From: Anadara kagoshimensis
Lineage: Eukaryota > Mollusca > Bivalvia > Arcoida > Arcidae
Assembly (NCBI GenBank): GCA_021292105.1
Contig: CM037870.1
Span: 46,208,576-46,272,575, forward strand
DNA length: 64,000 bases
Direction of reading: 5' to 3'
Shown here: piece after piece, positions 7,238 through 53,237 of the stretch
Layout: the number at the start of each line of letters is the position of its first letter
Position numbering within the stretch: the first letter of the stretch is position 1
The notes under the pieces: model-generated
Told to the model about the DNA's origin: nothing
The model's database searches: none
The model's input: the letters and a program-made list of their open reading frames with translations, nothing else
Translations under genes and position numbers: made by a program

Positions 7238-7779
7238 GTTTTTCTATCATGATGAGATAGATAATACTGTGCTATGAAATTTACACTTCAAATTTTCCCG
7301 GATTCTAACTGATGGAGACAAATTACACCACATAGAATGACAAAGTTGAAATGATACAAATGATCTTGATATGTTCGGTTTAAAACGGATGATAAATGTA
7401 CGCCTCAAGTGCCTAGCGATTTAAAGTAAAATGCAATGGAAAACCTAATCTGTAAAATAATTGAAATGCCTAGAAAATAAGATAGATCACAAAACAACTA
7501 TAAATGTACAACAGAAATTTATTCAATTAGATTTGAATTAAATATAGATTTTATTACCATTTTCTTTCGACCATACACCCACTAAAGAAAATTGGTGAAT
7601 CAAATGGCAAATACATATTTCCCCTGTAATTCAGTAAAGAACCTATAATAAACATAACCATAAGCGAAACTTTTCAATTAAGATACTGTTTGTCGGTTTT
7701 AGCCAGCAAAAGTCTATAGTAAACATAAAAAAAGTAATTTGCGATGAGAAATGTAACCAGAATAAATTACAGATATTAA

Positions 7780-8652
7780 GAGTCATTCTCTGTAAGGACC
7801 AAACTCCTCTGGAAATCGCATGTCACTGATTTTGAAAATATTTTACCTAAACAATAGGTACATATAAGAAACCAAGAAAAAATTATCAAACTTAGATTTT
7901 TATGTACCGTTTCCATGGTAACCAACCACTAAGAGGCCAATCTCTGGAATGTCAGTCAATTTTGGGTACATATCAAATATGCCGCTAGAATAAGCCATTT
8001 ATGATAGTGATCTTGCATATTTTGTTTTTATTCGGAACTTTGATGGTCATCCTTTTCTTTTTCAAGTCAAAACTGTATGAATTTACAAGTTTTTATTTAT
8101 TTTACTCACTTTTATCTCAAAAAAGCTCTATAAAATGACCTAAACTAGCTGTACTTTGAGATTGATTATTTTGAAAACGCGGGCACTGGAAATATATCAC
8201 ACACATTCAAGTTATTGAGGAAAGTAGGCTAAACAAAATAAAAAAAAATTAGAGTGGTACTTTTTTATTAAAGAACATAAATCAGTTTCAAAGTTACAGC
8301 AGTAGCCCTAGTAGGGCCCTTTTTTAAAAAAAAGAATTATCTCCCCTTATTTAAAAATTTCTCTTTTTGATATGTTTCATCTTGTATATGTCAAACATTT
8401 AATCATTTAGTTATTTTTTTAAAAATATGTATATTTATTATATATATTTTGATTAAAATTTGGTCAATAAAGCACGAGAAATTATATTTGTAATGAACTA
8501 TTTTAATAAACACTTGAAAAATTATTTGGATTTCACATGTTTAACAATAGGTTCCCTTCATCAACAGATTTAGCTCCCTTTATTTAACAAGATGTGGTGT
8601 TTCTTTTCTGTTTATTGCACTTTTTTCAATTTCTTGAAAAATATATAATTTT
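7780..8652 (+). repeat. Left arm of the foldback element
   Basis: It is the inverted counterpart of 9514-10585. Readable matches include the tagtagggcccttttt region (8309 area against 9837 area), the gcgggcactgga region (8179 against 9968) and the ggttcccttcatcaacagat region (8549 against 9578). The arms differ by scattered substitutions and one large indel, so the element is not recent. Confidence 0.8.
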
Positions 8653-8694
8653 TTATACTCACAAATATAATGGTTTATTATTGTACGTAGGAAA

Positions 8695-8736
8695 CACTAC
8701 TGATGAGGAATTGTATTCCGAAACGGCCGTCTAGTG
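8695..8736 (+). ncRNA. Type I hammerhead ribozyme motif with intact core
   Basis: The full hammerhead core can be read. Stem I is cacta (8695-8699) pairing with tagtg (8732-8736). The conserved CTGATGA box is 8700-8706. Stem II is ggaat/attcc (8707-8711, 8715-8719) with loop tgt. The GAAA box is 8720-8723. It is followed by C, a four-base linker and the GTC cleavage triplet (8729-8731). Stem III is minimal (A-U and C-G pairs), as described for hammerheads in Penelope-like elements and animal retrozymes. Cleavage is predicted after C8731. Two decayed relatives lie at 20406-20449 and 40329-40374. Cleavage has not been tested; the call rests on pattern and pairing. Confidence 0.75.
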
Positions 8737-9094
8737 CTGTAAAAATTAAAACTGGTATAATATGTAATTATAGATATTTACATTTTAAAAAAAATGATTT
8801 GATTATGTAATTGATTACGAAGCACTGAAACATTGTAATATTCGTATATTTTATAGAAATTTTCTAACATCTGTTTGATGAATTTGGTCAAATTTTGTTG
8901 ACTGCTAACACTGCTTTGTTATTTACAGTGTTTCATTTTAAACTTAAGCACTCTAACTTCCTACAGTTGTTTCAGCTTCAAAAATAAGGATCCAATTAGT
9001 ATTATATTGATCATAACTTATGTTAACATGCATCTATTGTAATCTATTAGGGCCTTCAATGAATAAACCTAACAGCTTTTTCTATCATAATATA

Positions 9095-9246
9095 TACCAC
9101 TGCGGTAGCTCAGTTGGTAGAGTGCTCTCTCTGTAAGTAGGGGGTCCTTGGTTCGAACTCGGACAGGGGCTGACCCAAGACCAGAAATTGGGTAGTGAGT
9201 TCTTTCGCCAAGCACCGAACGTTAAACACCATTACTCAACACACCT
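9095..9246 (+). mobile_element. tRNA-headed SINE, internally deleted copy
   Basis: It begins with a tRNA-like head: an A-box region gtagctcagttggtagag and a B-box region ggttcgaactc. After the shared gctgacccaagac segment it jumps to the 3' end gttaaacaccattactcaac, lacking about 200 bp present at 24818-25169. It is flanked by 13-bp target duplications, ctatcataatata at 9082-9094 and ctatgataatata at 9247-9259, differing at one base. It lies in the centre of the foldback element, so it inserted after that element arose. Confidence 0.85.
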
Positions 9247-9513
9247 CTATGATAATATAAAAATAGAACATATTCAAAAATATCTCCAACTAAAGTTTTA
9301 AACTATAATAGTCAAAATTAAATGACAAGACCATGTACACGCAGTTAACATGTTTTAACCAAATTCGCCAACCATATATAGCAATATTTATGATATTTTA
9401 GTGATTTGTAATCAGTTACATAATAAAACCATCTTTTGTAAAAACTATAAATATGAATTAGTTTCCAACAAAAAATTAATAAATCATGATATTGATGAGT
9501 TAAAAAAAAATTC

Positions 9514-10585
9514 ACGGAATTTAAAAAAGTGCAACAAATAGAAAACAAGTATATTTTTTGTTAAATAAAGGGAGCTAAATCTGTTGATGAAGGGAACCAA
9601 CTGCTAAACATGTGAAATCCAAATAATTTTTCAAGTGTTTATTAAAATAGTTCATTACAAATATAATTTTTGTGCTTTATTGCCCAAATTTTAATTAAAT
9701 ATATATAAATAAATATACCTATTTTTAAAAAAACAACTAAATGATTAAATGTTTGACATTTACAAGATGAAACATATCAAAAGAGAAAATAAATACCATA
9801 TTTTTAAATAAGGGGGATAATTCTTTTTTTAAAAAGGGCCCTACTAGGGCTACTGCTGTAGCTTTGAAACTGATTTATTTTCTTTAATCAAAAAGTACCA
9901 CTCTAATTTTTTGATATTTTGTTTAGCCCATTTTCCTCAATAACTTAAATGTTTGTATTATATTCCCAGTGCCCGCGTTTTCAAAGTAATCGATCTCAAA
10001 GTTCATCTAGTTTAGGTTATTTTATAGAGCTTTTTTTAAGATAAAAGTGAGTCAAAATAAATGAAAACTTGTAAATTCATACAGTTTTGATATGAAAAAA
10101 AAGGATGACCATCAAAGTTCCGAATAAAAACAGAATATGCAAGATCATTACCATAAATGGCATATTCTAGCGGCATATTTGATATGTACCCAAAATTGAC
10201 TGAAATTCCAGAGATTGGCCACTTTTTTTGTAATTTGTGTTTTTTATTGCCCCAGACATTAAATAAGGGATGGTCAAGTGCCAGGGTTGGGGCCACTGGG
10301 TTCACTTGCCGGGTAACATAGGACAGTTTGACATACATAAGATATATATATATATATAATTGTATAGTATTTGATCATTCTAGGGATTAATCTAGATTTT
10401 GTAGTAAGGCAGAGACTGGCCTCTTACTGGTTGGTTACCATGGGAACGACAATTTAAATTTTTGCAAAGAGCTTTTCATTTTTGTTTTTCTGTGTATTTA
10501 ATAATTATATGCAATATCATCAAAATCTGAGACATGTGATTTCCAAAATATAGCCAAATCGTCTGGTCCTTACAGAGAATGACTC
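9514..10585 (-). repeat. Right arm of the foldback element
   Basis: Inverted copy of 7780-8652. It is about 200 bp longer because of an extra block at 10221-10421. A 100-codon minus-strand frame (10036-10338) spans this block and looks like chance. Confidence 0.8.
10221..10421. mobile_element. About 200-bp insertion in the right arm
   Basis: The left arm lacks this block. It is bounded by cagagattggcc (10209-10220) and cagagactggcc (10410-10421), a 12-base near-duplication expected of an insertion. It contains a short TA run near 10341-10360. No terminal inverted repeat was recognised, so the type is unknown. Confidence 0.5.
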
Positions 10586-11544
10586 TTAATGATGAGATGT
10601 CCTATAGCATCTAATAAAGACGTTCTGACAACCTAACCGATTGACTTCCCCGGACCAACTGCAAACCTTGCTTCAAAAACGACAAGGTCAATAATAATCT
10701 AACTACTCACGACCCAAATGCCTAACCTTATATCATAACCCGGCTGTCTCATTATCAACCACTTTTGCTTGGTAGTTTAATTTTATTTATTTATTATTTT
10801 TTTTTGTAATGACAAGTACACTTTTCCATGTAAAAATTGCTTTCTTCTTCTAACATTTCTCAACCAAGCGTAAGTAACTTACCACTTAATCCAAAACACT
10901 GAAATAAGGCTACTTCCACTCCTTTGACACTGGCATATATACTTTAACGTAAATTGCAGAGTGATATTATAAATCGATGTGTTTATTTCAAATCATGAAC
11001 TTTTTATATTATTTATTTAGTTTTTATTTTATCATGGTGTATAGATAATACGATGCTATGAAACAAACATTGGCGTGGTTTGCTTCAAAATTGCCCTGAA
11101 GCAAACACTAAAGGAGACAAATTACACCATATTTAATGACAAAGTTGAAATGATCGGAATGGCCATGAAATATTTGCTTAAATATAAGCCTAAAGTGCCT
11201 GGCAATTTAAAGAACTATGCAGTGGGGTAACCAAATCTGCTTCATAATTGAAATGCCTAGAGAATAAGATTGTTCGCAAAACAACTACAAAAACAGTTAT
11301 TATTCAATTAGAATTGAATTTAATGCAATTCTTTCGGTCATAGACCGACTAAAAAATTGGTGAGCAGAATGGCAAAAACATATTTTTTTCTGTAATTGAG
11401 TAAAGACAAACCTTAAGGGAAACTTTTCAATTATACTTAGTTTTTGTATACTATAGTGGGTTTGTAGCCTGTAAAAACTATAGTGAACATAAACTAGAAA
11501 ATTGCGATGGAAAATGTGGACAGAATAAATTACAGATACTATCG

Positions 11545-15195: not shown

Positions 15196-16804
15196 ATGTG
15201 TATAACTTCCATTACTCTCCCAAAGTAGAAGTTATGTCAATGATTGGTCAAAATGTGTCTTTTTGTCTTATTTTATCAGTTCCTTGTGTTACATTATATG
15301 CTGTTTCAAATCTACAAAGGTCTGTCTATCTTCCATTTAATGACATGTGTATTACGTCCTATTGAATGCAATATAAGGCTAAAGGCAAGAGTTATTGTGG
15401 GACTTATTGGTTCCTGTGAAACTGTTTTATATATATAAGCTACCCGTAATTGAACTGAATTGGATGAACTACGAGTGATGAACAAATAGAATTTCGAAAA
15501 AAATGAATATTTTCTGACATAGTTGAACTGAAACAAAGATTCATTATACACACATATACACCGATGATACGAGATTCTTGTCAAATCAGTTTTGAAGAAA
15601 AGTCTAAATACGAAGTTGTTCGTCAAACAGGTTCGAGTGAAGTTATATAATTATTATGGGTCCTTCTCTGTGCTTAAAGCAACTGATCTTCAATGTTATT
15701 GCACATGGAGGGTGATCTGGTAATGTTACGAGTATCTACGTTCAGTGTGTCTACAATCATCATTGCCTGAAGAAAAAAACATTGCGTTTTTTGAAGCAAT
15801 GCTAAAGATGCTAGGTATACAGCTTCGTGTTTGGTATTGGAAACGAGAAGCAATAAATGGAAATTTTAAAAGAGCATACAAGATTTTTTTTAAAAGTATA
15901 CGCATGTTAGGTCATTATAAAGCACATTTGTAAAGATAATGTTAAACATTTATTGCCTTTGAATGAGGGAGATATGGACATTCTTTCACCCGCAGAGGGA
16001 GACTTCCCGAGGAAAATAGGACTTGTTAAGAGTAAAAAATGTTCATATCTCCCTAAGACGAAGTCAATAAATTATTTATACCGAAAGAAAACTATGGTGA
16101 TAAGAAAGACAGAAAGAAAGAGAAAGAAAACGAAACATGCATCGAGTTAACAAAAATGATTTTAAAATAAGACGTTATGGTGTGTTCCTAATTAGGGATC
16201 CATAACAGGAAAATATAAGATTTTTTTAGCCATGTGGCTGAGCTCATCCAATCAATCGTCAGTATTTATGAATGAGGTATTATAATATATAGAAGATCCT
16301 ACATTCGTGTTTATGTAATATTAAATCTATTAAACGAGTTTAATAATTCAATACTGAGTACTGTGATATTTTCCTATTTCTTACGTTGAAAAAGATGCTT
16401 GATGGTCATCTGAATGACTTGAAGTGACTTGGTGGTGCTGTACACGTCTATAGACGTTTTAAAGCCCGACAACTATTCTCCTTAAAAGTTTAAGCTTTCC
16501 GGATATGAAGTGTATGTGTATTAGAGGGCAATACTTTAGAGAATTAAATAAGGAATAACGAACAATACATTTTCTTGATGTTTCCATTCTAATTGGCATT
16601 GTATGGTGACGTACGTATGGAGAAAAAGTGTGTATGATGTAGATTGCGTTTGTTACAGTTTCTTTGTTGTCAATTGAGAAATTCTACTAAAGGAATATAA
16701 ACGGTTTATAACTAATAATGTATATTATTTAGAAATGATCAGCGTATTTAATTGTTTGCATTTTTTAAGTCAGATAAGACATAAATTAAAGTCAAACACA
16801 AACA
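15196..16804. other. No gene recognised
   Basis: The plus strand has two adjacent short frames in different phases (15745-15933 and 15953-16150, the latter very rich in Lys and Arg). The minus strand has a 104-codon frame (15312-15626). None has a recognisable motif, and no convincing splice pattern links them. Confidence 0.35.
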
Positions 16805-20362: not shown

Positions 20363-20405
20363 TTCGTAAGTAAATAATCATAACTAATTCTGTTTTAAAT
20401 TTGAA

Positions 20406-20449
20406 CCACTACACAGTCGTTTCGAAATAAAATTCTTCATCAGTATTGC
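20406..20449 (-). ncRNA. Degraded hammerhead ribozyme motif
   Basis: On the minus strand it keeps CTGATGA (20437-20443), GAAA (20420-20423) and the following C, with a stem I 3' strand tagtgg. Stem I has one mismatch, stem II is weakened, and the cleavage triplet reads GTG instead of GTC. It is probably inactive. The flank after the motif (attaaaac-like, then atttac) resembles the flank of the intact motif at 8695-8736, suggesting common descent. Confidence 0.5.
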
Positions 20450-20541
20450 TCAAACCAAAATTATAGAAATGATGTTGAAATGAGAAAAATGTATTTTACG
20501 AAATAACAAGTGACAACGTACGTGTTACAGCGACGTATATA

Positions 20542-33647: not shown

Positions 33648-33784
33648 AGAATCCTACACCAGTAACAGGGTAAGACAGAGATATCTCAAACTCGGATGAA
33701 TATTCTAAAGCTCGTTCTGGACAAGAAAATATTCATTCTCGTTTGAGATATCTCTGTCTTACCCTGTTACCGGAGTTAGATTCT
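33648..33784. mobile_element. Long hairpin element, AGAATC...GATTCT type, copy 1
   Basis: Inverted arms of about 57 bases run from agaatc (33648) to gattct (33784) around a loop of roughly 22 bases, with a very well matched core (gtaagacagagatatctcaa and its complement). It is followed by attaatc. Copy 2 at 36809-36961 has the same ends and following bases but different arm sequence. Confidence 0.75.
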
Positions 33785-38985: not shown

Positions 38986-40328
38986 TTTATTTGTTTTTAA
39001 TCCACTAGTACAAAGATAAGCAGGTGTTCATGCGGGCGTGCTATCGCTAAATACATAGAACATTGTTTATATCTATTGCAGTACCTTTTTACGGCTAACG
39101 TGGTTTATTGGCAATACTGGCATTTAAACTATCATTATTAAGTCGTCATTTAAAACTTTCATCTACCCTGGTTAATACGTATAGGGAGTTCAAAAACGAA
39201 ATTTGTCACTAAACACAAAGCAAAACTTAAAAAAACAAGAATTATACACGGACAAAAATGCAATTCTAAACGCTATCATGAATAAATCAGAAAGGAAACA
39301 GAGGGATGATTTTCAAATGACCTGATTGTAAAGTAGAAGCGGTTATGGCTATATAATAGGTACCAATTAGTCATTAGTTAGTTAACCACATTAGTAATAA
39401 GGGTCTTGAAATTGCTTAATATTTTTATTATGTTTTTAAAACATTATTACTAATTTCTTAAGTTCGTTTGTTAGCTGTTTCGTATTTTTTATGACCTTGG
39501 CTTTTGTAAAGTACATGTGATCAGCCACAATTTATTTTTCAATTGATTCCATTTTGTTTATTCCTTTACATTTTTATTATCCATGAACGTTTGACTTTAG
39601 GGTTCTAATACAAAATTTAAATTGATATCTATCAAAGTTTCTTTTAATGTCTTGAGATCGTAATTGAATAATTAATCCATAAATTATTCATTGTATATTC
39701 CATGAGGAATGGTTTATCTTTGTGACAATATAGGTAGGAGAATATGTGACTTAGTTCCATCATTGAAGTTTTATATATAATTCATACATGTGTATGTGGA
39801 CTGCGTGAAAATTCATCATTAATTCACACATGCCTTACACTTCAACCACACAGAGGATTACAACATGTTCTATGGGCACAGGGTGTTCTGTATCTAACAG
39901 GAGAAAGGGCATTAGTCTTATATATTTATACATTTCGTGTTATACGTATCATTTATTGAATACTCTAAACAGCGACTAAGTCGAATTTATTAACTATTTA
40001 TACGTGTCCTGAACTATTCAGACACACTGGGAATAGTAGCATATTTTATGAGGAGACTACTGACTACTGTCTGTATCACAATAAAAGCGAGAGGACCTCG
40101 CAACTACATTATATATATCAGACATTGCAAGATGTCCAGGGAATTTTAATTTTTCACATGTGTTTTTAAATAAAATTTCAATCTATACGTGGTATCAAAA
40201 TGGTTTGAAAATGCTCGGAGAATAATGCCCTTACACACAATACTATCATTTAATTGGTAAATTCAAATTCATTGAAAACAACTTAAAACAAACTGAGCAT
40301 TATTACTAAACTTTTTTTTATTTTGCAA
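38986..40328. other. No gene or repeat recognised
   Basis: AT-rich sequence without supported features. Confidence 0.4.
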
Positions 40329-40374
40329 CACTAGATGGTCATTCATTTCGGAATAGAATTCCCCATCAATAGTG
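40329..40374 (-). ncRNA. Degraded hammerhead ribozyme motif
   Basis: On the minus strand the two stems are intact: stem I cacta/tagtg and stem II ggaat/attcc, identical to the motif at 8695-8736. GAAA is kept (40346-40349). The CTGATGA box reads TTGATGG, the base after GAAA is T, and the linker before the ATC triplet is longer. It is probably inactive. The conserved stems with mutated core support descent from the same ribozyme. Confidence 0.6.
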
Positions 40375-51900: not shown

Positions 51901-53237
51901 TGGCAATTTCTTCTGAAACCTTATCTCTTTTCCTTGATATTCTGTAATTGCACAATCAATTGTCTATTATGTAATTTCCGATGTTAATAAAACTATTCAT
52001 CATTGTCAGTCAGTGGTCTAGCCATATTGGTTTATAAGGCGTCCGTAAAATCATTATTTGCTACTATCTAAATATATATCAATCAGTCAATGTTCTGTTC
52101 TAATTACTCATTTAAAAATGTCAGTTACTTGGAAGAACGCGCTAAACAATGTTTGTCGATATTAGTTAATTGGCGTTTTATTACATAAATCTACCAAAAC
52201 CAGCGTCTTCTATCATAAATGGAAAATTTTGTATGTTAAACTACATATGAAATGAAAAACAGTCTAGTTATCAAAAATATGACACAATACAAATGAGTGA
52301 TTTTACAGTCAGGCAATAAAAGAAAAACTGATATTCGGACCACAGAAAAAAATCCGGATTAGACGGGCACGGCAACATGTCCGGTGGTGTGGCCATAATA
52401 CTATGCGCGTCCTCCGTCAATCCCAATTATTTTCATTGTTGTTAATTCGTGTTCCTGTTGTTTTTGTAAATTGCCAAGAGCATGTACTTCAGCTAAAATG
52501 TATATGATTTATTACTGATCATATTGTTCCTTTAAATGTTATATGAGTGGCTGTAATGATGTTGATGCGGATTTAAACAATAAGTCATTACCTCATAACA
52601 AATTAACTGTTGACTTCTAACCAAACCATATTATTATCTAGTAGGTATTTACCCATGTACATTTTGGATATTGCTTTCAGGGTCATTGGCACACTAGATA
52701 CCCTTGTGGATGGGAAAAGAGATTGATCATTTGACTACATGACGTTTTTTCAAAGTGTTGAAAAGAAACCCAAAGGACCGAACTATATTTTAAAAAGTTT
52801 TTTTTTTATTTTATCATGAGACATTTATAAAATAGCGCCATGATATTGCGTATTAATATCTCCACGTATATTTATCGCTGGTCATTTGGCTTGAACTTTC
52901 CAATATGATTCTTTGGCCAAATTTAACGACAAAATTGTTATTTATGTTTAAATATAAATGATGCAATTTTAAAAAAAAATTATTTTGTTTTATAAATTTG
53001 TCGATTTATGTTAAATTACACTTAATAAAGCTAATTTTTATTTCAGGTCATTTCCTGCTATTTATTTATTAACCGTAAAAGTAATAATGACTTATAATTT
53101 TGCAAAATTAAAGGTGAAAGGCGAATGTACAGTTGAAAACTATTGAAAACGACCACAAAATAGCTACTCTTGCATGTCCCTAGTCGTATCTAGCTTCAGC
53201 GTTATTGCTGTATCTTATTGAGAAATATGCTGTGGCT
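51901..53237. other. No gene recognised; one GC-richer patch
   Basis: Around 52340-52430 the composition becomes GC-richer (gggcacggcaacatgtccgg and flanks). A minus-strand frame without stops crosses it, but shows no motif. It may be an old exon or repeat. Confidence 0.3.

Follow-up and report, generated by a model that had tools for sequence, protein, structure and literature searches.

A 5'-truncated hammerhead retrozyme inside a TTAA-flanked foldback element of Anadara kagoshimensis, and a family record suggestive of target-primed reverse transcription

Introduction

Among the systems already described, the closest are the metazoan non-LTR retrozymes; those of the mussel Mytilus galloprovincialis are repeats about 350-390 bp long, in which a total of about 5,000 hammerheads has been reported (Cervera and de la Pena, 2020; PMC7229834). 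The family analysed here resembles them in its type I hammerhead and its thousands of copies, apparently also in lacking LTRs, and is likewise built of short tandem units, of 339 nt as against the mussel's figure (PMC7229834). A tandem repeat unit of about 170-400 nt is found in the family (array L040), whereas the copy that led to it is part of a single unit and differs from a typical member in being a lone truncated end; target-site duplications, which exceed 4 bp in such retrozymes when present, reach at least 6 nt in 5 of 36 copies here, the longest being 30. LINEs or Penelope-like elements (PLEs) are named as candidate carriers of retrozymes in the Discussion of PMC7229834, which leaves the choice undecided, and the string "truncat" is absent from the main text of that paper, in whose consulted passages no fixed 3' end, truncation gradient or TT preference was found. 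Among the titles and abstract openings covered, in a body of literature with few subscription papers, none describes animal retrozymes that combine a single fixed 3' end with truncated 5' ends.

PLEs encode a reverse transcriptase and a GIY-YIG endonuclease, for which both a 73-nt copy and a 339-nt unit are too short. The hammerhead repeats of schistosomes include the Smalpha elements. Schistosome hammerhead satellites and W-elements, as described in PMC8490949, are like the present family in having hammerhead repeats with full and partial dispersed copies, and hammerhead-bearing PLEs, as described in PMC11167929, are like it in having a hammerhead near the 3' end of inserted copies and in forming tandem copies. 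For the anole PLE of the latter study, reverse transcription begins at an internal position and the preferred targets are AT-rich ATT sites, two features that the present family appears to share; its main substrate in vitro is unprocessed RNA (PMC11167929). The element that hosts the copy studied here has the long inverted arms and adjoining TTAA of TTAA-target foldback elements; it differs from them in that a ribozyme rides in one arm, as a passenger only.

Results

The hammerhead motif

The window, that is, the whole stretch of 64,000 nt that was analysed, contains a single match to the hammerhead core pattern; 2 of 100 dinucleotide shuffles contained one (mean 0.02). The motif and its palindromic centre are placed as follows.

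8695..8736, + strand: type I hammerhead ribozyme (sequence; core pattern; Rfam RF00163, 22.9 bits, cut-off 34)
8723..8730, + strand: ACGGCCGT, a self-complementary palindrome containing the minimal stem III (sequence)

Read directly from the letters, stem I pairs cacta (8695-8699) with tagtg (8732-8736), the core consists of CTGATGA (8700-8706), GAAA (8720-8723), C (8724) and GTC (8729-8731), and stem II is ggaat-tgt-attcc (8707-8719) with a 3-nt loop, so that every core element and both paired stems claimed in the initial annotation are present and correctly placed. Cleavage is predicted between C8731 and T8732. In full units of the family stem I extends to as many as 7 pairs (AGCACTA/TAGTGCT), the sixth of which is replaced in the window copy by an A-C mismatch that lies at the edge of the copy.

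The covariance-model check that had been proposed was run with Rfam RF00163 (Hammerhead_1) and gave an end-to-end alignment of 22.9 bits (E 0.0013, 161 nt searched), below the gathering score of 34 bits, so that there was no hit above threshold, an outcome that, together with a lack of cleavage, had been named beforehand as refuting the motif. RF00163 was not listed for the motif in either of two whole-window scans, and the minimum-energy folds of 51- and 71-nt segments were not the full hammerhead (z -0.69 and -0.95); such unfavourable free folding does not support the motif. Despite the Rfam score under the cut-off, the motif was accepted as real because of its homology to a unit of a tandem array elsewhere in the genome (74/76 nt). 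As judged from its sequence, it is confirmed as a complete type I hammerhead with a minimal stem III, the type assigned to it at the outset, which family homology and the tandem units support.

The window copy

The stretch 8692-8767 aligns with positions 264-339 of a unit of array L040, on another contig, with 74 of 76 identities, and the window copy corresponds to the last 73 nt of a unit only.

8695..8767, + strand: 5'-truncated retrozyme copy, unit positions 267-339 (identities with the L040 unit; edges from the arm alignment)
8732..8767, + strand: 36-nt stretch between the cleavage site and the fixed 3' end of the family, ending ...CTGGTATAATATGTAA (16-mer counted 9,724 times genome-wide, against 0 for the reversed control)

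The base at 8695 may belong to the target site, in which case the insert would start at 8696 rather than 8695, and no target-site duplication was seen at this copy in the arm alignment, where the relatives differ at that place. If transcribed, the ribozyme of the window could still cut in cis, as predicted, and a lone copy of this kind cannot release a unit-length circle. The source suspected at the outset, a retroelement that carries a ribozyme and resembles the animal retrozymes, is supported by the core counts and the tandem units given below.

The window holds further, older retrozyme fragments on the - strand at 20392-20469 (81% identity), 40316-40374 (77%) and 52746-52792 (81%), and a weak match at 502-525 (-; E 0.21). 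The fragment at 20392-20469 has GTG instead of GTC at the cleavage site and is therefore probably inactive.

The foldback element that hosts the copy

The element surrounding the copy had been described as a foldback at TTAA, and this description holds: TTAA adjoins 36 of the 41 listed ends of the foldback family (the window's place is counted twice, as the window and as L009).

7780..10585, no strand assigned: TTAA-flanked foldback element, host of the insertion (inverted arms; family ends)
7776..7779, no strand assigned: TTAA, left end of the foldback (sequence; family ends)
10586..10589, no strand assigned: TTAA, right end of the foldback (sequence; family ends)
9445..9482, - strand: mate arm at the corresponding place, with no insert (junction 9460/9461; arm alignment)

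A genome search with window positions 8480-9670 yielded 30 foldback loci, one of which (L009) is the window itself. Two of the 16 aligned arm sequences carry the insert, namely the left arm of the window and L010, and 14 are without it, the mate arm included. Likewise, among 59 arm rows, compared by gap length with their alignment listed in part, a gap of 95 nt occurs only in the window (also listed as L009) and in L010, the other 56 rows giving values of -5 to 58. In the mate arm the sequence ...GGAAAC is followed directly by the downstream sequence, uninterrupted at 9460/9461. The distance from the window to L010 is about 1.5 Mb, within one contig, and the two are 98% identical and match in their outer flanks; because L010 shares flanks outside the foldback, it is a duplicated segment and not a second insertion. 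Absence of the insert from 14 of 16 arms, including the mate, marks it as a secondary insertion that is no part of the foldback.

The motif thus sits in the inner part of the left arm, outside the central loop, and not in the centre of the foldback, where it had been placed at first. The proposal that the foldback captured, or derives from, a ribozyme-bearing retroelement survives in part: origin of the ribozyme in such a retroelement stands, and derivation of the foldback from it does not, given the 14 arms without a ribozyme. An arm of an older TTAA foldback has almost certainly received, at 8695-8767, one 5'-truncated copy of a highly abundant non-LTR retrozyme. Since the genome contains thousands of retrozyme copies, one inside another repeat is expected, and the ribozyme within the foldback is a case of chance nesting rather than the unusual combination that it had been taken for.

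Near the middle of the foldback lies a tRNA-like stretch (9100-9173) with A- and B-box-like motifs. An A-box-like match is found in 28 of 30 foldback loci (L009-L038, L009 being the window), for which reason the stretch seems to belong to the foldback element rather than to a later SINE insertion; ARAGORN found no tRNA in the window. One foldback copy (L011) is without the usual TTAA and is flanked on both sides by one and the same sequence, longer than 20 nt. Elsewhere in the window, long hairpins at 33662-33770 and 15966-16056 gave microRNA-model matches far below the cut-offs and are probably short inverted-repeat elements.

The retrozyme family in the genome

The genome searched comprised 1.115 Gb in 36 contigs and contains 9,641 core-pattern matches (4,818 + 4,823 on the two strands), against 633 (461 + 172) for the reversed pattern. 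Many of the first 100 matches listed are identical to the window core, and several are spaced at about 339 nt. The search for tandem copies that had been suggested was also run, and such copies exist: array L040 consists of five tandem units of 338-339 nt that are 98.2-100% identical to one of them, and with full units at L039, L051 and L052 this reference unit shares 92.9-95.0% identity. A tandem unit of 339 nt at 97% identity was counted toward the retrozyme assignment, and no LTR-like arrangement was seen at the sampled copies. The window copy and its family are members of the already known animal non-LTR retrozyme kind. Three pairs of copies have similar flanks (L083/L086, L076/L085 and L088/L091), which indicates that some copies multiplied inside larger repeats and were not inserted separately.

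The integration record

The sampled loci, all within the first 9 Mb of one contig, had been selected by core or by tail and so are not a random sample. The exact 16-mer tail ending in GTAA occurs 4,956 + 4,768 = 9,724 times in the genome and its reversed control not at all. Twenty tails were fetched, these being the first without an intact core at the expected distance, picked by eye against the listed core places (10 further ones were judged by eye), and in BLAST every one of the 20 aligns with the retrozyme as far as the tail; the match spans at least 37 nt in 18 of them and 26 and 24 nt in L069 and L071, of which 16 are the search pattern itself. On these samples and counts, a single fixed 3' end characterises the family, 36 nt beyond the point of ribozyme cleavage.

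The 5' ends are variable and form a truncation gradient. Allowing at most 2 mismatches, 20-mers from unit positions 11, 146 and 316 match the genome 2,619, 11,058 and 21,780 times (reversed controls 0, 0 and 104). The sampled loci contain 15, 28 and 49 aligned pieces that span the respective 20-mers, and the 20-mers themselves were counted 12, 23 and 44 times; as they are found in most of the covering pieces, sequence decay explains little of the gradient. In five copies (L060, L072, L077, L078 and L093) the 5' end falls within unit positions 280-283, where stem II of the ribozyme has its loop. This is possibly a preferred stop of the reverse transcriptase, a pattern noticed afterwards in a small sample.

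After removal of similar flanks, 46 termini were reduced to 42, which include two tail-like matches (17-18 nt) and one inner tail of L052. TT follows 27 of these 42 termini (26 of 43 in another tally), against a background of 12.8% (p ~1e-14), and 15 are without it. Among the 36 copies with enough left flank, a target-site duplication of at least 6 nt was found in 5 and not in the other 31; over 500 shuffled pairings the number averaged 0.86 and peaked at 4. The longest duplication, at L048, is 30 bp. Copies longer than one unit were found at L039, L040, L051 and L052 (4/42), and also at L093. Their 5' unit is truncated in all but L040, and extra nucleotides stand between the units in L051 (18) and L052 (27); such tandem copies could alternatively have arisen by unequal exchange. 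L043 and L062 are internal deletions and not copies of more than one unit.

Two possible signatures of the copying process were pursued and dropped. Ligation scars, that is, internal deletions ending exactly at the cleavage site, were first suggested by four local copies (L055, L062, L088 and L091, the last two with similar flanks), and are not supported, the end points being scattered: there are 112 deletion forms genome-wide, 100 of which were listed, and among the first 31 of the listed ones GTCTA is kept in 9, TAGTG without a preceding GTC is seen in 7 and neither in 15. Head-to-head pairs, considered as possible evidence that both cut strands are used for copying, fared no better. The L093 pair is 87% alike apart from an identical stretch of 58 nt, the two copies at L049 are 93% and 79% identical to the unit, and from this unequal similarity both pairs look like separate insertions.

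Penelope-like elements of the genome

The GIY-YIG family gave 50 genome matches among the best candidates scored, and the long frames in four of these loci, recognised by eye, are presumably PLE polyproteins. One PLE family of the genome carries a hammerhead, with 19 exact copies, and the anatomy of a hammerhead followed by a short tail is common to the retrozyme and this PLE (L082, L094 and L095). L094 and L095 are near-perfect palindromic pairs that comprise little more than the PLE hammerhead and tail. The head-to-head palindromes of L094, L095 and L082 are 97.9% identical over 190 nt, 97.6% over 211 nt and 99% over about 4.9 kb, respectively. A tail common to the retrozyme and an autonomous partner was considered and rejected: the retrozyme tail sequence has no match in the four PLE loci, and all 20 fetched tails are, by BLAST, retrozymes, two of them (L069 and L071) on short matches.

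Discussion

The single 3' end, the truncation gradient, the following TT and the copies of more than one unit suggest target-primed reverse transcription from one internal site. Taken as a whole, the best explanation is a truncated retrozyme nested in a foldback element, its family having spread by target-primed reverse transcription, to which we assign a probability of roughly 0.85. Retrozyme RNA would be reverse-transcribed at a nicked genomic site by the enzyme of another element, and copying would begin at a fixed internal site, mostly stop early and sometimes pass the unit boundary, a course of events that we consider likely. At the window copy the enzyme would have stopped just after the whole ribozyme had been copied.

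Two rival readings concern the window itself. The motif could be a chance match to the hammerhead consensus, as the Rfam score under the curated cut-off, the absence from the whole-window scans and the unremarkable folding z-scores might suggest, but the near-identity with the array unit amounts to homology, which refutes chance, and the excess of genomic core matches over those of the reversed pattern tells against it as well; we regard it as vanishingly improbable. Scarcely more credible is that the foldback element had the ribozyme as a functional component from its ancestor onwards. Its location inside the foldback and its presence in L010 would fit, but the great majority of aligned arms, the mate arm included, are without a ribozyme, the 95-nt gap is limited to the window and L010, and L010 is a duplicated segment; the arms without it rule out the ribozyme as a foldback component, unless each of them had lost it exactly and independently.

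Two others concern how the nested retrozyme and its family spread. Satellite-like spread through DNA recombination or DNA circles, without reverse transcription, would account for the near-identical tandem units of L040, but is at odds with dispersed single copies, one fixed 3' end and graded 5' loss, and with the 30-bp target-site duplication at L048; it appears quite unlikely. As to the enzyme, LINE-mobilised elements commonly show a fixed 3' end, truncated 5' ends and variable target-site duplications, which fits a LINE as carrier; the hammerhead-plus-short-tail anatomy common to the retrozyme and a PLE of the genome speaks against a LINE indirectly. With this parallel anatomy but no tail match in the four PLE loci, a PLE is about as likely a carrier as a LINE, and we propose either one tentatively, a Penelope-like enzyme being the foremost candidate.

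The copies also bear on the template of the proposed target-primed reverse transcription. Self-cleavage is expected after unit position 303, a linear cleaved monomer would therefore start at 304, and copying from 339 would give at most 36 nt. The window copy and most of the 42 exceed this length and cross the cleavage site, so that the template was not the linear cleaved monomer, provided that copying starts at the fixed end. Religated circular RNA is a reasonably probable template, and an uncleaved multimeric transcript is a plausible if less favoured one; the preference of the anole PLE for unprocessed RNA in vitro calls for caution about circles. More speculatively, animal retrozymes may integrate by target-primed reverse transcription of circular RNA from a fixed internal site a few dozen nucleotides beyond the hammerhead, catalysed by the enzyme of a PLE whose copies in this genome have the same hammerhead-plus-tail anatomy. 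If true, the thousands of truncated copies would document that reaction, and the relation of retrozymes to PLEs would mirror that of SINEs to LINEs.

For the window, the ribozyme and the foldback amount to chance nesting only, and the copy itself is ordinary; it is the integration record of the family that is of wider interest. With regard to the return of retrozymes to DNA, the genome of this species holds a measurable record of the process, in which the one 3' end, the truncation gradient, the TT preference and the copies of more than one unit limit the mechanisms that are possible.
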